The notes beneath the pieces are model-generated. The model was not told the DNA's origin. It saw nothing but the letters and a program-made list of their open reading frames with translations, and made no database searches. From positions 1 to 64,000 of the forward strand of contig JAQGIF010000154.1 of the NCBI GenBank assembly GCA_028291345.1: a DNA stretch of 64,000 nt, given 5' to 3'. The position numbers were made by a program, and so were the translations under genes. Shown in pieces: positions 35,341 through 48,872 of the stretch. Every line of letters starts with the position of its first letter. Within the stretch, counting starts at the first letter, position 1. Source of the DNA: Rhodospirillales bacterium. Its GTDB lineage: Bacteria; Pseudomonadota; Alphaproteobacteria; BOG-932; Roseiterribacteraceae.

Positions 35341-37083
35341 ATGGCTGGTTGGGTAAAGGGAGACGCAATGCAGATTGCCACCGAAGACGTCAGTTCCGTT
35401 GAAAATTCGCTCGGCGCATTGCTGGTCCAGCGCGGCAAGCTGGATCCGCGCGCTCTGGAGCGGGCCATGCGAGTCCGCGGCGACGGCCAGGAAGGCCTGA
35501 CGCAGCTCCTGCCAAAGCTCGGTCTGATATCGGAGCGCGATATTGCCGAGGTACTCGCTGAACAACTCTCACTGCCTCTGGTCACGGCGCAGGACTATCC
35601 GACGTTGCCGCTGCTCGAAGGCGAGGTCAGCGTCCGATTTCTGCACGCCTCGCGCGTTCTGCCCCTAGCCGAGACGCCCAAGGGCCTTCTGCTCGCCATG
35701 GCCAACCCGTTGGATCACGAGGCGATCGAAGCCATGCGCCTGGTCGCGGCTCAGGACATCTTGCCGTGCGTCGCCGTCCCGGCGGAACTCGAGGCGGCGG
35801 CAGTACGGCTCTACGCGGCACAAAAATCGCCGATCAACGAGATCATCGAAGCCGTCAGCGACGAGGAAGATCAGGCAATCGAGTACGACGTCGAACGCCT
35901 CAAGGACTTGGCCAGCGAGGCGCCCGTCATCCGGCTGGTCAACCATCTCGTCACCAAGGCCGTCGAAGCGCGGGCGTCGGACATCCATATCGAACCTTGC
36001 GAGGACAGGCTGCGCGTCCGCTTCCGCATCGATGGGGCATTGCGCGACATCGATGCCCCGCACGATCGCTTTCGTGCCGCCGTGATCTCGCGCGTCAAGC
36101 TCATGGCCAAGCTGAACATCGCGGAACGGCGGCTGCCTCAGGATGGCCGGATCAAGCTGGCGATTCATGGAACGCCGATCGATTTCCGCGTCTCGACCAT
36201 TCCGACCATGCATGGCGAAAGCGTCGTTCTGCGTGTGCTCGATCGAGAGAGCGTGGCGCTGGACTTTGCAGCAATCGGCGTCGACGGCCAGAACTTACGG
36301 AATTATCTCGACGTGCTCGAACGGCCCAATGGCATTCTCCTCGTCACCGGCCCGACGGGCAGCGGCAAGACGACGACTCTCTACGCGTCATTGGTGCGTC
36401 TCAATACGGCGGAAAAGAAGATCCTCACGGTGGAGGACCCAATCGAATACCAGCTCGACGGCGTCAACCAGATACAAGTCAAGCAGAGCATTGGGCTCAG
36501 CTTTGCCAATATCCTGCGATCGATCCTGCGCCACGATCCTGACATCATCATGGTCGGCGAAATACGCGATCTCGAGACCGCGGAAATCGCGGTCCAGTCT
36601 GCGTTGACTGGCCATCTCGTGCTCTCGACCCTTCATACAAATGACGCCGCGGGCAGCATAACGCGCCTGCTCGACATGGGGGTCGCGGACTACCTCCTGA
36701 CCTCGGTATTGAACGGTGTGGTCGGACAGCGGCTCGTCCGAACCCTATGTCCGCGATGCCGCCAACCCTACCGCGCCATGCCGGAGCTCTCAGAACAACT
36801 GAAGTTGGCGCGCTATGCGGCGGGGTCCGAATTCCTGCTCCACCGTGCTGTGGGTTGCGAGGCCTGCAATGGGACTGGATATTTCGGCCGTACCAGCATC
36901 TTCGAAATGCTGATCGTCACGGACACTATTCGCCGGTTGATTCTCCGACATGCGGAATCCAACGCGCTTCATCGGGCGGCCGTGGAGGAGGGCATGCGTA
37001 CAATGTATGACGACGGCATGATGAAAGCGCTTGCAGGAGAAACGACGATCGAGGAAGTGCTCAAGGTAACCCACGATAAGTGA
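35341..37083 (+). CDS. gspE: T2SS ATPase GspE
   Basis: GPTGSGKTTTLYA, GEIRDLETAEIAVQSALTGHLVLSTLHTNDA, tetracysteine CPRC...CEACNGTGY; start possibly 35368. Confidence 0.95.
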   Translation: MAGWVKGDAMQIATEDVSSVENSLGALLVQRGKLDPRALERAMRVRGDGQEGLTQLLPKLGLISERDIAEVLAEQLSLPLVTAQDYPTLPLLEGEVSVRFLHASRVLPLAETPKGLLLAMANPLDHEAIEAMRLVAAQDILPCVAVPAELEAAAVRLYAAQKSPINEIIEAVSDEEDQAIEYDVERLKDLASEAPVIRLVNHLVTKAVEARASDIHIEPCEDRLRVRFRIDGALRDIDAPHDRFRAAVISRVKLMAKLNIAERRLPQDGRIKLAIHGTPIDFRVSTIPTMHGESVVLRVLDRESVALDFAAIGVDGQNLRNYLDVLERPNGILLVTGPTGSGKTTTLYASLVRLNTAEKKILTVEDPIEYQLDGVNQIQVKQSIGLSFANILRSILRHDPDIIMVGEIRDLETAEIAVQSALTGHLVLSTLHTNDAAGSITRLLDMGVADYLLTSVLNGVVGQRLVRTLCPRCRQPYRAMPELSEQLKLARYAAGSEFLLHRAVGCEACNGTGYFGRTSIFEMLIVTDTIRRLILRHAESNALHRAAVEEGMRTMYDDGMMKALAGETTIEEVLKVTHDK

Positions 37084-38309
37084 TGGCAATGACGCGGTTC
37101 AGATATAAGTCCGTGACTCCCGTCGGCGAACTCGTTCAGGGCGAGATGGAGGCGGTCACGCGGCGGGCGGTGATCGAGCGGCTGCATAACGACGGTCATA
37201 CGCCGATCCGGGCCGATGAGATCACCGAGGGATCTGCGCTCCGACTCTTTCCGGACGGCTTCTTCCGACGCACAGTGCTGTCGGGAACGGATACGGTTCT
37301 GCTCACACGCGAATTGGCCACATTGCTGGGCGCCGGGGTTCCGCTGGAGGGGGCTCTTGTCATCCTCGTCAATCTCGCCGACGACGGACCCAAGCACCGA
37401 CTAATACAAGCTGTCCTTGAGAGAGTTCGCGGCGGCAGCAGCCTAGCCGATGCCCTGGAGCCCTACAGACGGACATTGCCGGGCTTCTACATCGCCATGG
37501 TGCGTGCCGGAGAGGCGGGGGGAGCTCTCGAGATTGTTCTGACGCGGCTTGCTGAGGCGCTCGAGCGCGCCCAGTCACTCAAGGCGACGGTGAGGTCGGC
37601 GATGTACTACCCGGTCATCGTGCTGATCGTCGCGGTAATCTCCCTGATCATTCTGCTGACCCAGGTAGTGCCGGCGTTTCGGCCCTTGTTCGAGGGCACC
37701 GGTGCGGCCTTGCCAACATCAACTAAAGTCATCGTCGCGCTCGGGGAATGGTTGACGACCTATTGGTGGCTCACCTTCGCCGTTCCCGCCGGACTGGTCC
37801 CAGTCCTAAGGAATCTCTACCGTCGGCCGACGGTTAGGCTCGCTTGGGACAGGACGATGCTCAAGATCCCGCTGATCGGCGAGCTCATCACAAAGCTGGA
37901 GGTGGCACGGTTCAGCCGGACCCTGGGGACGCTGCTGAGCAATGGAGTATCCATCCTAAACGCCCTCGCCATCGCGGTCGACACGCTGGGGAACCGCGCC
38001 ATGGCCCAGGAAGCCAGCGGCCTCGCCGCAAGCCTCAAGAAAGGCGATGGTCTCGCACGACCGCTCATGGCTTCCGGAGTTTTCCCACGGTTGGCCGTTC
38101 AGCTGATTCACGTGGGCGAAGAGGGTGGCCAATTGGAAGATATGCTGCTCCGGGTTGCGAGCATCTATGACGAGGAGACCAGGCAAGCTCTTCAGAGAAT
38201 GCTGGCCTTGCTCGTTCCGATGATCACTATCCTTCTTGGCCTTATCGTCGCCGCCGTCGTCAGCTCGATGCTGACGGCCATATTGAGCACCTATGACCTG
38301 GCGTTCTGA
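37080..38309 (+). CDS. gspF: T2SS inner-membrane platform protein GspF
   Basis: ATLLGAGVPLEGAL; MVRAGEAGGALEIVLTRLAE; VGEEGGQLEDMLLRVA. Confidence 0.95.
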   Translation: MMAMTRFRYKSVTPVGELVQGEMEAVTRRAVIERLHNDGHTPIRADEITEGSALRLFPDGFFRRTVLSGTDTVLLTRELATLLGAGVPLEGALVILVNLADDGPKHRLIQAVLERVRGGSSLADALEPYRRTLPGFYIAMVRAGEAGGALEIVLTRLAEALERAQSLKATVRSAMYYPVIVLIVAVISLIILLTQVVPAFRPLFEGTGAALPTSTKVIVALGEWLTTYWWLTFAVPAGLVPVLRNLYRRPTVRLAWDRTMLKIPLIGELITKLEVARFSRTLGTLLSNGVSILNALAIAVDTLGNRAMAQEASGLAASLKKGDGLARPLMASGVFPRLAVQLIHVGEEGGQLEDMLLRVASIYDEETRQALQRMLALLVPMITILLGLIVAAVVSSMLTAILSTYDLAF

Positions 38310-38379
38310 CAAGCGGTCGGTCCGACGGCGTCTGGCCACGGGAGGTGGATCGACGGATGAAAGCAGGCGTTCGGCGAGA

Positions 38380-38605
38380 CGCCCCGACCTCGATATAGGC
38401 CGTGATACAACGCAACGGGAAGGTCTGCAGGGGCTAGGAAGGTGTTCGATGGACGGAGGAAACTGGAGTGAGCTCTGTATCAAGAAGCGCGAAGAGCTGA
38501 ATGATCCCTGGGCGCTCACACATCTACTGCTGTCCCGGCGAGCGTGGCGAATATGATCTTCATTTTGTGGGTGCGAGCGGTAAGATCGCGAGGGCAAAGA
38601 CGTGA
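38380..38605 (+). pseudogene. gspG: Decayed gspG (major pseudopilin) remnant, N-terminus missing and frameshifted
   Basis: LDIGRDTTQREGLQGL...GGNWSELCIKKREELNDPW then, in another frame, GRSHIYCCPGERGEYDLHFVGASGKIARAKT*; matches GspG signatures (D.GRYPTT..GLQAL; NW..PYLKK..LP.DPWG..Y.Y..PG.HGEYDL.S.GADG). Confidence 0.82.
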
Positions 38606-39054
38606 GGTTACGAACTGGTACTTGCACCGGGTTTACACTCATCGAGCTCCTGGTCGTGCTTCTGATTGTGAGCTTGGTGATCTCCCTGACGCCGGCCGCT
38701 TTCCAACGCGCTATCCCGGCATTGGAGACCAAGGCGGCCGCTCGCGCCGTGGCTGCAGCCTTCAGAGAAGGCCGCAGCCAGGCCATCCGAGACAACAGAG
38801 AGATTCCGGTCATCATCGATGTCGACGCTCGCACAGTGCGGGTCGGCATTGAGCATTATCCGGCTCAGCTGAGCCGGCGGCTCCGATTATCGCTCTTGGC
38901 CGGGCGATCGGAATTCACTGGTGGGAGTGCAGGCCAGATTGGGTTTTTCCCGGATGGAACTTCGACCGGCGGGCGCGTGACGCTCACGGCCGGTGGGAGC
39001 AGATACGATGTCGTGGTGGACTGGCTTACTGGGCTGGCGGTCATCAAGGAGTGA
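38602..39054 (+). CDS. gspH: T2SS minor pseudopilin GspH
   Basis: GFTLIELLVVLLIV prepilin motif; FFPDGTSTGGRVTL. Confidence 0.88.
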   Translation: MRLRTGTCTGFTLIELLVVLLIVSLVISLTPAAFQRAIPALETKAAARAVAAAFREGRSQAIRDNREIPVIIDVDARTVRVGIEHYPAQLSRRLRLSLLAGRSEFTGGSAGQIGFFPDGTSTGGRVTLTAGGSRYDVVVDWLTGLAVIKE

Positions 39055-39061
39055 CCGGCCC

Positions 39062-39448
39062 TTGCGGGGGTCACGGCCGTTAGGTTTCACGTTGCTCGAG
39101 GTGCTGGTCGCGCTCGCGATCCTTGGTGCTGCCCTGGGCGCGCTTCTGCAGGCTTTTACCGGTGGTTTTCATCGACTGAGCGTCTTGGAAGATTATTCCA
39201 CCGCAGTGACGCACGCGCGCTCCGAGCTGGACCGGCTCGGAGCCGAGCTTCCGCTCGCGGAAGGACAATATTCCGGGAGCTTCACCGACGGCATGACGTG
39301 GACGGCGCAATTGCGCCGATATGACGTAGGCAGCTCCGGTAAAAACGCGGCCTTGGCCGTCATTACCTTTGAGATCACAGTTACCGTCTTCTGGCGCGAA
39401 CATCGCGCGCTCACGCTGTCGAGCCTACGCCTAGCGAGCCAGGCATGA
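39062..39448 (+). CDS. gspI: T2SS minor pseudopilin GspI
   Basis: GFTLLEVLVALAILGAALGALLQAF; TTG start after AAGGAG plausible (ORF track 38993). Confidence 0.82.
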   Translation: MRGSRPLGFTLLEVLVALAILGAALGALLQAFTGGFHRLSVLEDYSTAVTHARSELDRLGAELPLAEGQYSGSFTDGMTWTAQLRRYDVGSSGKNAALAVITFEITVTVFWREHRALTLSSLRLASQA

Positions 39449-40110
39449 GCTCCCGGGTGACATCGCGAGCGTCGGCTCCTCCCAGGTATCCGGCCAGCAA
39501 GGGCTTTACCTTGCTCGAGGTTCTGATCGCACTCACGCTGCTCGGCCTGATTTTTTCGCTGTTGTGGGGTGTCTTCAGATTTACCACCAGCGCGTGGGAG
39601 AGCGCCGGTCATCGAATGGCGCGTTCGAACCAGATCTCAGCAGTGCAGGATCTTCTCCGAAGCGAGGTAAGCCAAGCACGCATGCTGCTCATTGGCAGCG
39701 GCAGGTCCGAGCCCAACCGGACCTTCAAGGGATTGCGAAGAGAGTTGGAATTCGCCGCTCCGCTGCCGGCGCATATGGGAGCCGGAGGCTATTACCTGTT
39801 CTCGCTCCACGCCACAGAGATCCGTGGTCGCCAGGGCCTTGCTTTAGCTTGGCAAATCTATCGCCCGGATATGTTCGCCCGCGGACGCGACCAGCATCGT
39901 GAGGAGGCCGTATTGCTCGACGATGTCGGGGGTATCGCATTCGCGTACTACGGCCAGTCGCAGGAGGACGAACAACCTGTCTGGACCGATGATTGGGGCG
40001 ACCGGCGCAACCTACCGAAGCTGGTTCGCATCCGGGTCAACTTTGCCGCTGGGGAGCGCCGCTACTGGCCGGAGCTCGATATCGAGCTGAAATCGGAGGG
40101 AGGGCCTTGA
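39445..40110 (+). CDS. gspJ: T2SS minor pseudopilin GspJ
   Basis: GFTLLEVLIALTLLGLIFSLLWGVFRF; ATGA overlap with gspI. Confidence 0.85.
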   Translation: MSSRVTSRASAPPRYPASKGFTLLEVLIALTLLGLIFSLLWGVFRFTTSAWESAGHRMARSNQISAVQDLLRSEVSQARMLLIGSGRSEPNRTFKGLRRELEFAAPLPAHMGAGGYYLFSLHATEIRGRQGLALAWQIYRPDMFARGRDQHREEAVLLDDVGGIAFAYYGQSQEDEQPVWTDDWGDRRNLPKLVRIRVNFAAGERRYWPELDIELKSEGGP

Positions 40111-40270: not shown

Positions 40271-41359
40271 GTGACGCAGATCTTGGACAAGGGTTCCCGA
40301 TTCCTCGCATGGTGGCTCGGAGAGTTGTCGAGCCTGATCCCGGAACCCGTGAGTCAGATTCTCAAATATCAGCCGCATGTCCTGACGATTGAGATCGATC
40401 GCACCCGCGCAATTCTGGGGCACCGCAAAGGCAATCGCTGGCGGGAGATCGGCCGCATAGAGCTGACCGGAAAGGATCCGGCCATAATCCGCGGCGAGCT
40501 TGTCCGCCTGATGGGACAAGACAGCCTACGAGCGCAGCAGATCGTCCTCTATCTGCCCAGTACCCGCGTCCTCCGCCGTTCGATCAATCTGCCTCTGGCG
40601 GCGGCGGAGAACCTCAGGGAAGTGTTAGGGTTCGAGATAGACCGCCATACGCCGTTTAAGGTCGAGGAGGTTTATTACGACTTTCGAATCGCCAAGCTCG
40701 ATCGTGAAGCCAGGCGCGTCACCGCCATTGTCACTGTGGCGACCAAAACGTATGTCGACCAGGCACTGGTAATGCTGAAATCGTGGGGCGTAACGCCTAT
40801 TCGCGTTGGCGTCGCCGATGAGCAGCCGGAACACGGCGAGACCCCGAGCCTTCTTTCGCTAGCTTCCAACTCGATCCCGGGCGCACGCCTCCGAAAATTG
40901 TCGGGCGGGCTCGCCATAACGGCCTGCTTGCTGGCAGCTATAGCGGCGTATTTGCCCTTGTATCAGGAGAAGCAGCTCCTGGCGGCCTACGAAACGAAGC
41001 TGGAGGCGGCTCGCGGTGTCACGGCAGCAACGGAAAAGCTCAAAAAGCAGGTCGCCGGGGTGCTGGAGCGCAACCGCTTCCTCGCCGAGCGCAAGCTCGC
41101 CAAACCAACCATCACCGAACTGCTCGATGAGGTGACCCGGCGCATCCCCGACGATAGCTGGGTCATGCAGTTCCGCGCCGAAGGCGATGAGATCGTGCTC
41201 ACCGGAAACTCGCCGCATGCGTCCGCGCTCATTCGTCTGCTCGAGGGCTCGGAGATGCTGGAGCAAGTGCGCTTCGGCTCGCCGGTCACATTCGATCAAC
41301 AGCTCGGCGGCGAACGATTCACCCTTTCGGCGGCGATAACCCACAGGCGCGTCGAATGA
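40271..41359 (+). CDS. gspL: T2SS GspL-like (PilM/PilN-type) protein
   Basis: Actin-like LPSTRVLRRSINLPLAAAENLREVLGFEIDRHTPF; C-terminal PilN-like region; GTG start. Confidence 0.82.
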   Translation: MTQILDKGSRFLAWWLGELSSLIPEPVSQILKYQPHVLTIEIDRTRAILGHRKGNRWREIGRIELTGKDPAIIRGELVRLMGQDSLRAQQIVLYLPSTRVLRRSINLPLAAAENLREVLGFEIDRHTPFKVEEVYYDFRIAKLDREARRVTAIVTVATKTYVDQALVMLKSWGVTPIRVGVADEQPEHGETPSLLSLASNSIPGARLRKLSGGLAITACLLAAIAAYLPLYQEKQLLAAYETKLEAARGVTAATEKLKKQVAGVLERNRFLAERKLAKPTITELLDEVTRRIPDDSWVMQFRAEGDEIVLTGNSPHASALIRLLEGSEMLEQVRFGSPVTFDQQLGGERFTLSAAITHRRVE

Positions 41360-41934
41360 TAACTGCCATGTCTGCTTGGAAAGGTCGCATCGCAGCGTTG
41401 CTGATCCTGATCGGCGTTGTGGCTGCAGCATATCTCCTGCTTATCGGGCCCTTGCTGGCCGACTACGATGAGACACGGCTGGCAGTCGCTGATGCGCGCG
41501 ACCGGCTTGCCCAGCTCGATCGTCTGAGGGGCGTCGAGGCCGAGCTCGAGCAGCAGATGGCAAAACTGCGGCAACGCCAATCCTCGACCAGTCTCTATCT
41601 GACTAAGGGCAGCGATGCTCTCGCCGCCGTCGAAATACAAGATCGCGTCAAAAGCTTCGTCGAACAGAACGGCGGTGCCGTGCGAAGCGTACAGGCCATG
41701 CCTGGACAGGGGGATGGAGGTTTCCGCCGCGTGACCGTCCGACTCCAGATGACGGTCACAACGACTCTGCTTTACCGCATGCTCTACCGCCTGGAGGCCG
41801 AGGCGCCGGCATTGTTCGTCGACAACATTGCCATTCAGAGCACGTCATCCCGGGAGGGCGACGGCAAGGCGGCCGACCCGCCTCTGACGGTGAGCTTCGA
41901 CGTATTCGGGTATCTGCCGGGGGAAGCGCAATGA
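41356..41934 (+). CDS. gspM: T2SS GspM-like protein
   Basis: Single N-terminal TM then coiled coil; position after gspL with ATGA overlap. Confidence 0.75.
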   Translation: MITAMSAWKGRIAALLILIGVVAAAYLLLIGPLLADYDETRLAVADARDRLAQLDRLRGVEAELEQQMAKLRQRQSSTSLYLTKGSDALAAVEIQDRVKSFVEQNGGAVRSVQAMPGQGDGGFRRVTVRLQMTVTTTLLYRMLYRLEAEAPALFVDNIAIQSTSSREGDGKAADPPLTVSFDVFGYLPGEAQ

Positions 41935-42428
41935 CGGCACAACGATCATTGCCTGCACTGACAGCGGCATTCCTGGGAGCTACCTGCCTTGGCTTGCTGG
42001 CTCTTCTGCAGCGGGAGCTCAATGCCGCCGAGACTCCCGCCGACCCCGGAAAGCCGGTCGCCGACCGCATGATTCGGTCGCAGCCCCAGGAAAAAACATT
42101 TGCAATGGCTCCCCTCCAGAAATTTTCGGCCATCGTCGAGCGGCCGATCTTTTCGCCAAACCGCCGTCCCGCGGCGAAGCAGCCGGATTCAGAAAAGCAG
42201 CAACGCCCGCGCTCTAGCCTTGCGCTGTTCGGGATCACGATCTCCGCGGGCGAGCGGATCGCCCTGGTTGGGGTGGAACGTGGCACCAGCCTCGCCCGCA
42301 TGAAGGAGGGCCAAGCGTTCTCAGGTTGGGTTGTCGTCGAAATCGATCAAAATCGAGTGTTGTTGCGTCAGGGCACCGTCGTTGAAGCGCTGGAGCTGAA
42401 CTATGGGACACCGCCGTCCGGCAAATGA
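41931..42428 (+). CDS. T2SS GspN/GspC-like protein (HR-type domain)
   Basis: FSAIVERPIFSPNRRP; LFGITISAGERIALVGVERGTSLARMKEGQAFSGWVVVEI. Confidence 0.75.
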   Translation: MTAQRSLPALTAAFLGATCLGLLALLQRELNAAETPADPGKPVADRMIRSQPQEKTFAMAPLQKFSAIVERPIFSPNRRPAAKQPDSEKQQRPRSSLALFGITISAGERIALVGVERGTSLARMKEGQAFSGWVVVEIDQNRVLLRQGTVVEALELNYGTPPSGK

Positions 42429-44937
42429 AAAACGCTTCTGGCCTGTGAAGCTTAATCTTCTTCGCGGGCGAAGAGGCCAGGAGGGCGTTCGTTCGGATGC
42501 CGACGGCCTCGCCGTCGGCACGATCCTGCTGGTTTTGGCAAAGGCCGCGCCGGCGGGATGCAAGAGACTGGCGGTCAGCCACACCGAATCGCCGTCACAG
42601 AAGACGAGGATCGGGACTCCTCGAGACATTCTCGGCGGTCGTCGAGGGACCGATCCCTGCGCCAGACGACGCTGGGAAAGGGCGCTGGACAATGAGACGC
42701 AGTTCGCGCCCGGCGCCGTACTCAGGTGCATCATCGGGTTGGCGTTTTTGGCCCCCGCGCTGATGGCAGGGGGGTGCCAGGAAAAAAGCGCTGACCGCCC
42801 TTATCCCATCGAATCGCCACACCTCGCGGTAAGGAGCACAGGCGTCGACGCGCGGGATGGGTCCAAAGTGATGAATATGAGCAGGCGGGTCGATCTCGGC
42901 CGCCCCGAGCAGCCGCGGCTCATCGATCCTCAGATCGAGAGAGGAACAGGCTATCTGATAGCTCAAGCGTCCGACAGCGACCCGCGCTTCACCGAAACTG
43001 ATGACACGGCCACCCTCAATTTCGTCAGTGCGGACATAAGGGAAGTCGTTGCGACAATCCTCGGTAACCTCCTCAAAGTGAATTACGTCATAGATCCGGC
43101 GGTCAAAGGAACCATCACGGTGCAAACCGGCCGACCGATACCGAAGTCGGCGCTCATCCCGACGCTCGAGCAGTTCCTTGCTGTAAACGGCGCGGCCCTG
43201 GTCAAGGCAAACGGAATCTTCAAGGTCGTGCCGCTCGAGGATGCCGCGAAAGGAATTGCCGGTCCGCTGCCCCCCCCACCGCCGTCATCGGATGGCGGCT
43301 TCGGGACTTATATCTTTCCGCTGAAATTTGCCTCGGCAACGACACTCACGAAGGTTCTGGAACCCTTCGTCCCTAAAGGACGCGAGCTGCGTATCGATGC
43401 CACGCGAAACGTCCTGATCTTCCCCGGAACAAGCGCCGAGGCGCAAAACCTGCAGAATCTCATCTATACATTCGATGTCGATTTGATGAAGGGGATGTCG
43501 TTCGCCATCTTCCCGATCGAGTTTACAGACCCCGAGGCGATAGCGTCGGAACTCACTCGGATCCTGGGTCAAGAGAAAGGACCGCTGAATGGCGTAGTGC
43601 AGTTCCTGCCGATCCGACGGTTGAACGCCGTGCTCGTTATCACGCCTCAGCAAAAATATCTCGATACCGCACGTACCTGGATAAAACGGCTCGATCGCAC
43701 CGATGACGTAACACCGCGAACCTACGTGTATTACGTTCAAAATGGGCGGGCGACCGACTTGGCCGACGTCCTCAGCCAGGTTTTTGGTGCGACGGGCGGC
43801 AGCGGCCAATCGGCACTTCAGGGTCCACCGAGGCGCAATCTGTCGCCGCTCCGCAGCATAGGTTCATCCGCAGGGGCGGCCACTGCACCCGGTATGACAT
43901 CCTCCGGGTTGACCTCCTCCGTTCCGGGCCTAGGCGAATCCGAGCCCGTTGCGGCCGCACCGGGGGGGCTGCCGCCGCTGCGCTCGGCTGCCCCGCCGCC
44001 TTCGGACATCCCCGAGGGGACCCCCGGTGCCGAAGGCGACGACAAGACCCGCAACCTCCGAATCGTCGCGGACGACAAGAACAATGCGCTGGTTATCTTG
44101 ACGGCACCCTCTCAATATCGGCTGGTCGAGTCGGCGCTGAGGCAATTGGATAATGTGCCCCTGCAAGTGCTGATTGAGGCGACGATCGCCGAAGTTAGCC
44201 TCACCGACGAGCTGAAATATGGGATTGAATGGTTCTTCAGGAACGGCAAGACCAATGCGAGCTTCAGCAGCCTGGCAACCGGAGCTGTGTCAGCGGCAGC
44301 GCCTGGCTTTTCCTACTTCCTGAACAGCACAAATATACAGGCCGTGCTCAATGCCTTGACCAACATCACGGATGTTAAGGTCATCTCGTCGCCGCAACTG
44401 ACGGTCTTGGACAACGGGCGCGCCCGAATCCAGGTTGGCGACCAGATTCCCATCGCCGTACAGTCGGCCGTCTCGGTGATCAATTCTGGAGCGCCAATCG
44501 TCAACTCGATTCAATATCGTGACACGGGCGTGATTCTGGAAGTCGTCCCGAGGGTAAACGCGAACGGACTCGTCTTCCTCGAAATAGTCCAGGAGGTCAG
44601 CGACGTGGTCCCGACCACGACCTCGAATCTCGACTCCCCGACGATCCAGCAGCGCCAGATCGAGAGCAAGGTGGCAGTTCAAAGCGGAGAGACCGTTGCG
44701 CTTGGCGGACTGATCCGGGACAGCCGCTCCAACTCGGTGTTAGGACTACCTATCCTCTCCGAGATTCCGGTCCTCGGCAGTCTTTTCAGGACGACGGATA
44801 ATTCAATCAAACGCACGGAGCTGCTCGTCCTGCTGACGCCGCGGGTGATCAAGAATCGCCAGGATTTTGCGGACGTGACCGAAGAGCTGCGCAGCCGCCT
44901 CCATACGCTTTCGGCGCTCGAGATGAAGATCCACTAA
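42403..44937 (+). CDS. gspD: T2SS secretin GspD (true start uncertain)
   Basis: LNFVSADIREVVATILGNLLKVNYVIDPAVKGTITVQTGRPI; secretin domain VPLQVLIEATIAEVSLTDELKYGIEWF...; ELLVLLTPRVI. Confidence 0.93.
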   Translation: MGHRRPANEKRFWPVKLNLLRGRRGQEGVRSDADGLAVGTILLVLAKAAPAGCKRLAVSHTESPSQKTRIGTPRDILGGRRGTDPCARRRWERALDNETQFAPGAVLRCIIGLAFLAPALMAGGCQEKSADRPYPIESPHLAVRSTGVDARDGSKVMNMSRRVDLGRPEQPRLIDPQIERGTGYLIAQASDSDPRFTETDDTATLNFVSADIREVVATILGNLLKVNYVIDPAVKGTITVQTGRPIPKSALIPTLEQFLAVNGAALVKANGIFKVVPLEDAAKGIAGPLPPPPPSSDGGFGTYIFPLKFASATTLTKVLEPFVPKGRELRIDATRNVLIFPGTSAEAQNLQNLIYTFDVDLMKGMSFAIFPIEFTDPEAIASELTRILGQEKGPLNGVVQFLPIRRLNAVLVITPQQKYLDTARTWIKRLDRTDDVTPRTYVYYVQNGRATDLADVLSQVFGATGGSGQSALQGPPRRNLSPLRSIGSSAGAATAPGMTSSGLTSSVPGLGESEPVAAAPGGLPPLRSAAPPPSDIPEGTPGAEGDDKTRNLRIVADDKNNALVILTAPSQYRLVESALRQLDNVPLQVLIEATIAEVSLTDELKYGIEWFFRNGKTNASFSSLATGAVSAAAPGFSYFLNSTNIQAVLNALTNITDVKVISSPQLTVLDNGRARIQVGDQIPIAVQSAVSVINSGAPIVNSIQYRDTGVILEVVPRVNANGLVFLEIVQEVSDVVPTTTSNLDSPTIQQRQIESKVAVQSGETVALGGLIRDSRSNSVLGLPILSEIPVLGSLFRTTDNSIKRTELLVLLTPRVIKNRQDFADVTEELRSRLHTLSALEMKIH

Positions 44938-45887
44938 TGCATGCCTGGTCGTGGGTGGTGCATGCTGCCGTGAACCCAGCCCGCAGCAAAGGAAGCGAGA
45001 ACGGCGTGGCTCTCGTTGCCGTGCTGTGGGTGCTTGCGTTGCTTTCGATGATGGCGGTGGTCTTTAACGCGGAAATGCGGACCCAGACCGACCTCGAACG
45101 CAACCTTGTGGAGAATGCGCAGGCAGAAGCCCTGGCCGATGCCGGCGTCTATCAGGCGATCGCAATGTTGCTAGATCCCGACCAGACCCGCCATCCGCGG
45201 CTCGACGGCACACCCTATCCATGGTCCCACGCCGGGGGGCAGGTTCTCGTCTCGATCCAGGACGAGGGCGGCAAGATCGACCTCAACGCCGCGCCGGACG
45301 GCCTCTTGCGGAGTTTGTTCGTCTCCGTTGGCGTCGCGCCCGAGGTCGCGTCGACATTGGTTGACAGGATCCGCGACTTCACCGATCGGGAACACATCAG
45401 ACGGTCGAACGGAGCCGAAGATGAGGATTACCGTCTCGCCGGCGTCGGCTATGACCTGAAGCATGCGCCCCTCGACAGCGTTGCCGAGCTCGAGCAGGTG
45501 CTCGGCATGACCCACGAATTGTTCCGGCGGGTCGAACCTTTCGTGACGGTCTACACTGGGCTCGACGGAATCAATCCGCTGACCGCATCGCGAGAGGTGC
45601 TGGCCGCGGCGGCTCGAAGTGCGGCGCAGTCGCAATCCGAGTTCAAGGGCCAACAAGCGACCCCGATTCATACTGCTTCGCCGGTCACGGATCTTGGTTC
45701 CGGAGTGCCAGGCGCCGCCCAGGCACCGGCGGTTACGATTCGCGCCGAGGCATGGACCCCGGCGGGTGGTGTATTCGGCCGCGAAGCCGTGGTTCTCCTG
45801 ACCGAGCAGCCCTTCGCCATGCCCTTCGCCATCCGGGAGTGGCGACGAACGTGGACGGTGTCGCCGTCCCCTTCGCCGATCGAGTAA
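44937..45887 (+). CDS. gspK: T2SS minor pseudopilin GspK
   Basis: NGVALVAVLWVLALLSMMAVVF; DLNAAPDGLLRSLF helix-hairpin motif. Confidence 0.88.
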   Translation: MHAWSWVVHAAVNPARSKGSENGVALVAVLWVLALLSMMAVVFNAEMRTQTDLERNLVENAQAEALADAGVYQAIAMLLDPDQTRHPRLDGTPYPWSHAGGQVLVSIQDEGGKIDLNAAPDGLLRSLFVSVGVAPEVASTLVDRIRDFTDREHIRRSNGAEDEDYRLAGVGYDLKHAPLDSVAELEQVLGMTHELFRRVEPFVTVYTGLDGINPLTASREVLAAAARSAAQSQSEFKGQQATPIHTASPVTDLGSGVPGAAQAPAVTIRAEAWTPAGGVFGREAVVLLTEQPFAMPFAIREWRRTWTVSPSPSPIE

Positions 45888-46063: not shown

Positions 46064-46531
46064 CTATGGTTTCGACGCAAAGCGCTTCGACGTCGCCGAC
46101 TGCGGCCTTTTGATTTCATTCAGGACACCGAACACCCTCAGGACATAGTCGACCCCGCGTGTTTGATTGGGGCCGTGGTAGCGCGCCACGGCCTCCCAGG
46201 AATAGCCATGGCGGTCGACCTCGCCCGCGAGGATCCAAGCGCCGGAATAAATGCAAGTGCATTTATTGGCTAGGAGGTCGCCGCCGGTAATGCCGAAGCC
46301 GGCTAGCTTCGGAAGCCACCGGCTGTTGATTTGCATGGCACACAGATCGAGGCTGCCGTCGCTGTTTCCACCGATCGCGCCCGCGTCGCCGTTGCTCTCG
46401 ACATAGGCGATCGCCCGCAAGAGCGATGGAGACAACCGGTAATAGGCACCGGCGTCGTCGTAACAGTCTGCAAGGGCGGCACCGGTGGTCAGCATGCCGG
46501 CGAATAGCAATAGGCAGGGGCTTCGTCTCAT
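46064..46531 (-). CDS. Exported lytic transglycosylase (VirB1/IagB-like)
   Basis: Signal peptide; SPSLLRAIAYVESNGDAGAIGGNSDGSLDLCAMQINSRWLP...ARYHGPN. Confidence 0.85.
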   Translation of the reverse strand: MRRSPCLLLFAGMLTTGAALADCYDDAGAYYRLSPSLLRAIAYVESNGDAGAIGGNSDGSLDLCAMQINSRWLPKLAGFGITGGDLLANKCTCIYSGAWILAGEVDRHGYSWEAVARYHGPNQTRGVDYVLRVFGVLNEIKRPQSATSKRFASKP

Positions 46532-46715
46532 TGCATACCGGTCCTCCGCCGACAGGCTGGCCTCGCAGGGCAACGGTCGCGCCGCATGCTCGACAGCGAC
46601 GTGAGGGCAAAGATCAAAATAAAGAATACCATGCCCGCTTAGAGCGCGGTGTAAGAATTTGTGGATCCTAACCGGAATACTTGTAGGAATCCAATAATAC
46701 CGGCCCTCCGTTCTT

Positions 46716-46743: not shown

Positions 46744-46943
46744 CTATTTATTCGAGTGGTCCAATTGACGCCAGAACGCGCGCCTGATCAGGCCGCTCGG
46801 CGAAGGCGTAGATCGTCCTCTGCTGAGGTACGCCCTTTGAGGGCGGTAAGTTCACGCGAATAGTTGTCCGGGGCGCCGCGTGGGGCTTGTCGGGCGAACG
46901 ATGAATGCCGGCTGATCGAACGGATCTGAAAAGGAGACAGCTC

Positions 46944-48872
46944 ATGAAATTCAAGACAACGGCAGCGCTAGCGGCGGCTTGCGCAATGGGCCTCGGGACT
47001 GCGACCTTTATCTACGCCGCCCGGGCGGACCAACAAGGACAAGCCCAAGGGCATGACGACAAAGGAACAGATCCAGGAAAAAACGTAGGTGATTTCCTTA
47101 AAGAATGCCCGAATACGGGGATCTTCGGCAATCCACCAATCTATTTCCCCTATCCCAGGCGTATAATTCCACGTGATCTGTGCAAGGAGATACAAAGGGT
47201 TCGACGCGAAGTTAAAGTTGTTTACGACCGTTATCTCGCCCAGTCGAAGGCGTTGACACCGCCGACTCTGACGAGCCAACCTCCAACGCTTCAGGGGACA
47301 GGTTATGAAGCGGTACGGATACTTGGCGGGCTGATGAATTACGACGAGAGGATATCCGTCGGCGGGAATGTGGCCTGCGCTTTCTGCCATATGCCGTACG
47401 CCGGTTTTAGCGGACCGATACCGTCCGTCAATCTGACGATGATCGCCTATCCCGGATCGTACCTCGCTCGGGCCGGCAAGCGGAACCCTCAGCGATACCC
47501 CTATTCACCCAGATTTCCTGTGTTTCACCTGAATGGAGGAAAAAACGCGGGTGTTGGCGGAACCTTTACCGGCGGAAACTTCTGGGATGGACGCGCGACC
47601 GGATACAAGTTGCAGAGTCCCGACGCTGAGCAGGCACAGCATCCTCCAGTCGATTCCCAGGAAATGGGCTCGCCTGACACGGCGTGCATCGCGTTCAAGC
47701 TGTCGCAGGCGGAGTATCGGCCGTTGTTCGAGCTGGTATGGGGAGACGATTTCGATATCCAGTTCCCGTCCAATACTCAGGAGATCTGTGCCACGCCTGA
47801 AGGGGCGGCACAGTTCGGCACGAGCGCCACGCCCATCAATCTAAGTCCGGTAGATCGCACCAAGGCAAACAACATTTACGATCATTGGGGGCAGTCGATC
47901 TCCTTCCTTGAAAGTTCAAACGATATCAGCCCCTTCACCTCGAAATTCGATCGCTTCTTGGCGGAAGCGGTCACCCTGACGCCAGATGAGCAAGCCGGGT
48001 ACAGCCTGTTCCGGGGGCAGGCAGGCTGCAATTCATGCCACCTCGACGGAAGAGGGACCACTCAGACGCCCGACACCGGCTCGGATGGGACCCCCTCTAC
48101 TGTGACGGGAACCGACACCAGCGCGCCCGCCGATCTGCAGCCTTTGTTCACCTGCTTCGCCTATGCCAATCTCGGCCTGCCGCTCAATCCCAGGGATGCG
48201 TTCTACTATCAGACCACGCCTGATTTCTTCGGGTTCACCCCCAATCCCCTCGGCTTCGGTTACAGAGATTTGGGACTTGGCACCTTCCTCAGAAGCGGCT
48301 TCGGCTCCGGGCCAAATCCGAACGCGGTGAATTGGCTATCATTCGCGACCACTTCTGACGGCCAAATGCAGACATCTACGGCGCGCAATGTGGCCATGAC
48401 ACCGCCAAATTCCACCACCGAGGCGCCAGGGCCCTACTTTCAGAAGGAGTTCTTTCACAATGGCTACATCAAGAGCCTGAAGCAGCTCGTCCATTTCTAC
48501 AATACGCGGGACGTGTATGCATTCAAGGTGACGTCTGGGCACTGCCCAAAGGGGACGACGGAAAAGGTGGACTGCTGGCCGATGCCCGAGGTCCCGAACA
48601 ACATCGATATGACGGTCGGCAACCTCGGCTTGACGGATCAGGAGGAGAACCAGATCGTGGTATTCTTGCAAACACTGACGGATGGTTTCGATCCGGCCAA
48701 CCCGACCGTCAGTAACTACCCCAACATCGACACCTTTACGGGTCAGTTGATGACCGGGGGTAACGCATCGACTCAAGGTAATGAGCACCTGATACCTACT
48801 CCGCCGCTTCCGCCCTGCTCACCGGAGGTCTGCGGTGTCGCGCCTCTGCCCGGGCCGTTGGCCATTCAATAG
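46944..48872 (+). CDS. Large secreted cytochrome c peroxidase/MauG-like protein
   Basis: SD AAGGAG, signal peptide; heme motifs CAFCH and CNSCH; GGNFWDGRATG; FHNGYIKSLKQLVHFYNTRD. Confidence 0.85.
   Translation: MKFKTTAALAAACAMGLGTATFIYAARADQQGQAQGHDDKGTDPGKNVGDFLKECPNTGIFGNPPIYFPYPRRIIPRDLCKEIQRVRREVKVVYDRYLAQSKALTPPTLTSQPPTLQGTGYEAVRILGGLMNYDERISVGGNVACAFCHMPYAGFSGPIPSVNLTMIAYPGSYLARAGKRNPQRYPYSPRFPVFHLNGGKNAGVGGTFTGGNFWDGRATGYKLQSPDAEQAQHPPVDSQEMGSPDTACIAFKLSQAEYRPLFELVWGDDFDIQFPSNTQEICATPEGAAQFGTSATPINLSPVDRTKANNIYDHWGQSISFLESSNDISPFTSKFDRFLAEAVTLTPDEQAGYSLFRGQAGCNSCHLDGRGTTQTPDTGSDGTPSTVTGTDTSAPADLQPLFTCFAYANLGLPLNPRDAFYYQTTPDFFGFTPNPLGFGYRDLGLGTFLRSGFGSGPNPNAVNWLSFATTSDGQMQTSTARNVAMTPPNSTTEAPGPYFQKEFFHNGYIKSLKQLVHFYNTRDVYAFKVTSGHCPKGTTEKVDCWPMPEVPNNIDMTVGNLGLTDQEENQIVVFLQTLTDGFDPANPTVSNYPNIDTFTGQLMTGGNASTQGNEHLIPTPPLPPCSPEVCGVAPLPGPLAIQ

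Follow-up and report, generated by a model that had tools for sequence, protein, structure and literature searches.

The pseudopilus shaft of a type II secretion system (T2SS) is formed by GspG, and as a rule every T2SS is expected to have a GspG of its own. In Pseudomonas aeruginosa, XphA/XqhA work with parts of the Xcp system. In 2004, Arrieta et al. reportedly described the levansucrase T2SS of Gluconacetobacter diazotrophicus, encoded in the lsd operon, at whose head lsdG stands. In the T2SS endopilus, GspG is the major subunit and GspHIJK are located at the tip (PMC10128026). Three pseudopilins, GDI0483-0485, are named in the levansucrase T2SS operon of G. diazotrophicus, and the location of gspG outside an E-F-H-I-J run fits this system (PMC2765452). 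The Xps-type operon of Xanthomonas has the order E-F-G-H-I-J-K-L-M-N-D, and the operon described here resembles it in gene content and order; an Xps-like order with gspG between gspF and gspH is likewise found in alphaproteobacterial relatives, among them Indioceanicola, G017, G056 and G386. The operon studied here differs from the Xps type in that its gspG is a pseudogene and its gspK stands at the end, after gspD.

The window, meaning the whole stretch of DNA that was analysed (64,000 nucleotides), represents contig C233 of a 5.6-Mb draft genome of a Rhodospirillales bacterium, assembled in 401 contigs with 97.07% completeness and 3.9% contamination. Its T2SS operon and the gene that follows are composed as listed below.

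35341 to 37083, plus strand: gspE, secretion ATPase, intact (TIGR02533, 647 bits; T2SSE)
37080 to 38309, plus strand: gspF, platform protein, intact (TIGR02120, 363 bits; T2SSF)
38386 to 38511, plus strand: gspG relic, first piece (DLDIGRDTTQREGLQGL...NDPW, beginning DLDIGR), prepilin signal and N-terminal helix missing
about 38507 to 38605, plus strand: second piece of the gspG relic, frame shifted relative to the first (GRSHIYCCPGERGEYDLHFVGASGKIARAKT, then a stop overlapping the start of gspH)
38602 to 39054, plus strand: gspH, minor pseudopilin, intact with prepilin signal (PF12019, N_methyl, XpsH)
39053 to 39448, plus strand (listed ORF start 38993): gspI, minor pseudopilin, intact (XpsI, gspI)
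39445 to 40110, plus strand: gspJ, minor pseudopilin, intact (family profile matches)
40271 to 41359, plus strand: gspL-like gene with PilM/PilN domains, intact (profile match)
41356 to 41934, plus strand: gspM (T2SSM_b), intact (profile match)
41931 to 42428, plus strand: gspC/N-like gene, intact, weak family match (T2SSC, 15.3 bits, under the cut-off)
42403 to 44937, plus strand: gspD, secretin, intact, true start possibly further in (TIGR02517, 488.6 bits)
44937 to 45887, plus strand: gspK, minor pseudopilin, intact (T2SSK_1st; NF037980)
46064 to 46573, minus strand: lytic transglycosylase (SLT; profile match)

The core parts of a T2SS (E, F/L/M, D and H/I/J/K) are intact in this operon, and the C/N-like gene matches its family weakly. 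What the cluster lacks is GspG, in whose place the relic is found. Two matches to the prepilin peptidase family Peptidase_A24 are present on other contigs (C267 and C251) and none in the operon itself.

The 292 bases that separate gspF (stop 38307-38309) from gspH (start 38602) contain no intact gene or pseudopilin. An earlier note, made on the letters of this DNA, had proposed a truncated and frameshifted gspG relic in this gap, and the profile matches, the deletion and the break in frame bear it out. Taken singly, the two pieces scored 25.4 bits (first) and 19.5 bits (second) against a hidden Markov model (HMM) of intact relatives, compared with a top score of 8.0 among 6,411 translated segments from 500 shuffles. 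The joined pieces matched the Pfam T2SSG domain (PF08334) with 40.9 bits (cut-off 21, E 2.4e-10) over profile positions 30-95 of 108, a domain match that places them among GspG pseudogenes; they also matched TIGR01710 (E 2.3e-6, under the cut-off of that model) and the solved GspG structures 2kep, 3gn9, 3fu1 and 4lw9. An 87-aa ORF at 38293-38556 was considered as a small functional protein and rejected, as on its own it has no Pfam match and no prepilin helix. An Rfam search of 38150-38750 found nothing. The GC content at third positions, calculated from few codons, is 55-58% in the relic pieces versus 68-75% in the neighbouring genes.

The recognisable part of the relic starts at 38386, 76 nt after gspF, a small correction to the earlier note. 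The conserved 'xxD' site follows the gspF stop after 219-225 nt in Indioceanicola and in G403; since the interval is only 76 nt in the window, about 145 nt carrying the prepilin signal and the hydrophobic helix is, judged against these two relatives, deleted, as had been proposed. The end of the C-terminal domain is also missing, and residues conserved in the family are changed (YP to DT, GPY to ELC, PY.Y to SH.Y and LGAD to VGAS). With no N_methyl segment, about 145 nt absent and a broken frame, the relic does not qualify as a functional GspG. As read from its sequence, 38386-38605 is the decayed remnant of the gspG, the gene for the major pseudopilin, that the window's T2SS operon once had. 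The relic is regarded as the operon's own gene because it is closer to the nearest GspG proteins of A-type operons (44-46% identity), in which gspG is kept between gspF and gspH, than to the only intact GspG of its genome, on contig C17 (30%), and because it occupies the same position in the operon. This assignment was made by identity and synteny, as the relic's terminal branch in the GspG tree (1.89 changes per site versus about 0.3-0.5 for most intact A-type sequences) is long enough to blur its placement there.

The genome-wide HMM search for another GspG that the earlier note had proposed returned a single T2SSG match in the assembly, the intact gene on C17 (109.6 bits). It adjoins the genes K-D-C-M-L of a second T2SS, complete but diverged, whose E-F-H-I-J genes and a prepilin peptidase are located on C267, the two sets being joined by gene order in relatives. 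The GspF proteins of the two T2SSs in this genome are 44% identical. The C17 protein, which is the predicted partner of the window's platform, is no more than a distant relative of the relic. The genus mate that has a T2SS (G001) carries the second type only, together with its GspG, and no second copy of the window's T2SS was found in five genomes of its genus, family and order.

Both T2SS types were recognised in GspF trees. Type B is a well-supported group that contains the system on C267 and those of G001, Acidisoma, Kozakia, G282, G233, one contig of G299 (C8) and others; gspG was never found between gspF and gspH in this group. Type A is a looser set that includes the window. Within it, gspG lies between gspF and gspH in Indioceanicola, G017, G056, G178, G386, G260, G394 and G403 and is missing from this position in Skermanella, G109, G299 (C14 and C40), G392/G393 and G007. 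No T2SSG was found on the two Skermanella plasmids, which were the part of that genome searched. In the A-type loci without gspG, gspF and gspH overlap or stand within about 80 nt of each other, so there is no space for a relic, and among the loci examined a fossil gspG is kept in the window alone. Where the genome also carries a B-type system, none of five A-type operons had gspG between gspF and gspH, against 7 of 10 where it does not (Fisher p 0.019, from genomes that are not independent and with Skermanella and Indioceanicola, known from plasmids, excluded), a difference that is only suggestive.

Comparison with relatives, also proposed in the earlier note, revealed several genomes with more T2SSs than GspG genes, some of them drafts. 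The genome of G299 (100% complete, 90 contigs) contains three T2SS gene sets, with GspF proteins 39-44% identical among themselves, and two GspG genes, both of the B lineage and 95% identical, one of them unlinked; no further T2SS was gained from the order to which G299 belongs. Both G392 and G393 combine an A-like and a B-type system with one GspG of the B lineage, which stands beside the A-like operon. Two A-like systems (GspF 49% identical) occur in G007 with two GspG genes 89% identical, both apart from the T2SS operons. Paralogous GspG proteins are thus 89-95% identical within G299 (C8, C26) and G007 (C2, C11), where GspF proteins are 39-49% identical, as if the GspG genes had undergone late duplication or gene conversion. 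On a complete Kozakia plasmid, two T2SS operons (GspF 51%, GspD 49% identical) occur with one gspG; the levansucrase gene adjacent to the first operon has been described as interrupted and that operon as partial (PMC5050591).

Among Acetobacteraceae, GspG genes are fewer than GspF genes in 8 of the 19 genomes with at least two GspF (G439, G459, G461, G535, G658, G663, G737 and G741), with GspF counts that are perhaps lower bounds, few candidates having been scored; none of the 37 genomes scanned lacks GspG altogether. G459 and G461 each have two complete gene sets, their lone gspG adjoining a lytic transglycosylase gene, and in G535 and G439 the single gspG lies on a different contig from either T2SS. 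The second set is spread over contigs or less complete in G663, G737 and G741.

Several further observations concern these loci. A small lytic transglycosylase gene adjoins gspG in Acidisoma, Kozakia, G459, G461, G439 and G741 (loci L010 23368-24292, L172 17404-18407, L183, L186 and L189), and the gene pair may form a unit of its own; in the window, the transglycosylase gene comes after gspK though no gspG is located there. Just after the window's T2SS, a large di-haem cytochrome c peroxidase (CCP_MauG, 46905-48872) with an apparent signal peptide is encoded, a candidate that could be a substrate of this system. The annotations place the same two products after the T2SS on plasmids of Skermanella and Indioceanicola, namely a hypothetical protein (about 490 aa) and a member of the HupE/UreJ family (L008 22200-25148, L009 22205-25152 and L011 17616-20617). 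In G109, there is no gspG between gspF and gspH, and its sole GspG was found on another contig (L074, G109:C358, 163-3911), together with another gspE and a short match to a secretin, which may represent a second system in reduced form. One stop codon (TGA or TAG) lies inside gspF in each of four relatives, L013 (G017), L092 (G398), L116 (G638) and G532:C115, possibly as a result of decay or draft errors.

We consider it likely that the window's T2SS still works and is built on the C17 GspG of its sister system, its own gspG having decayed. The second T2SS, with a compatible GspG, would have made the local gspG redundant, after which this gene would have been stripped of its signal, its helix and its open frame. 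Other lineages would have gone on to a clean deletion of gspG, with gspF running straight into gspH, so that the window may preserve a stage which they passed without a trace. The pseudopilus of the window's T2SS would then be built from C17 GspG, presumably after processing by a prepilin peptidase whose gene lies elsewhere in the genome. More broadly, in Alphaproteobacteria of the Rhodospirillales type, one GspG, often unlinked, appears to serve at least two T2SSs. On balance, we lean towards a model, drawn from gene content and sequence comparison, in which one GspG serves two or three diverged T2SSs, the shaft being common and the secretin, platform and tip being private and carrying specificity; the window would show the loss of a private gspG under way.

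The earlier note had offered three outcomes without choosing among them: a dying system, a GspG encoded elsewhere, or a takeover by GspH. The second is favoured here by the intact GspG of the C17 system and by the recurrence of the arrangement in relatives. The idea of a dying operon, in which gspG broke first and the others have not yet followed, would agree with the broken major subunit and with the presence of this T2SS in only one lineage of its family. It was weighed by a decay calculation, used as a stand-in for dN/dS, in which intact relatives were mutated neutrally until the score of the relic was reached. Against the A-type HMM, the relic scores 58 bits and intact relatives 109-120, and in this simulation it takes about 0.21 neutral substitutions per site to bring the latter down to the score of the relic. 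Presuming decay in place and ordinary evolution beforehand, drift to this divergence should have left about 43 stop codons in the ten other T2SS genes, and drift to 0.05 substitutions per site, a quarter of it, about 12. None was seen inside these ten genes. Because about 43 stops are expected under drift and none was observed, this calculation shows that selection has kept the ten genes open since gspG decayed; a dying operon is therefore quite unlikely, and the machine probably still works.

The takeover of the shaft by GspH or another minor pseudopilin, with no GspG needed, would be in keeping with the position of gspH directly after gspF in all operons without gspG. However, the window's GspH is of the usual GspH/XpsH-like kind, and at least one GspG was present in each of the whole genomes scanned in which a close relative of the window's T2SS is encoded (in Skermanella, where plasmids were searched, there was none), so this proposal is unsupported and very improbable. 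A second, dedicated gspG in the unassembled part of the genome is an unlikely explanation. The completeness of 97.07% in 401 contigs and the commonness of unlinked gspG genes in relatives speak for it, but the assembly has one T2SSG match, and the same deficit recurs in better assemblies (G299, G461 and the complete Kozakia plasmid). That an intact gene was broken by faulty assembly or sequencing is scarcely credible, even in a draft genome with some contamination, as the relic, lying between intact genes, combines the loss of about 145 nt with a frameshift and many altered conserved sites, and the composition of the window resembles that of the genome's other contigs.

If sharing of GspG is confirmed, the window's T2SS will be a system whose major pseudopilin is supplied in trans. 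The shaft would then be generic, specificity would have to reside in the tip, platform or secretin, and surveys that call a T2SS incomplete or dead because gspG is missing from its cluster would err in this group. The idea of a generic shaft is testable in naturally occurring genomes that have two machines but a single shaft gene. In the open-licence literature, we found no paper describing one GspG that serves several T2SSs. The levansucrase T2SS of G. diazotrophicus and the B-type systems of Acetobacteraceae are similar to the window in having no gspG between gspF and gspH; in contrast to the lsd operon, the window's T2SS has no gspG of its own, only the relic. The use of XphA/XqhA in P. aeruginosa resembles our reading of the window in that components of one T2SS are used with another. 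There, parts of the outer-membrane channel are exchanged, whereas here the major pseudopilin would be common to two otherwise full gene sets.
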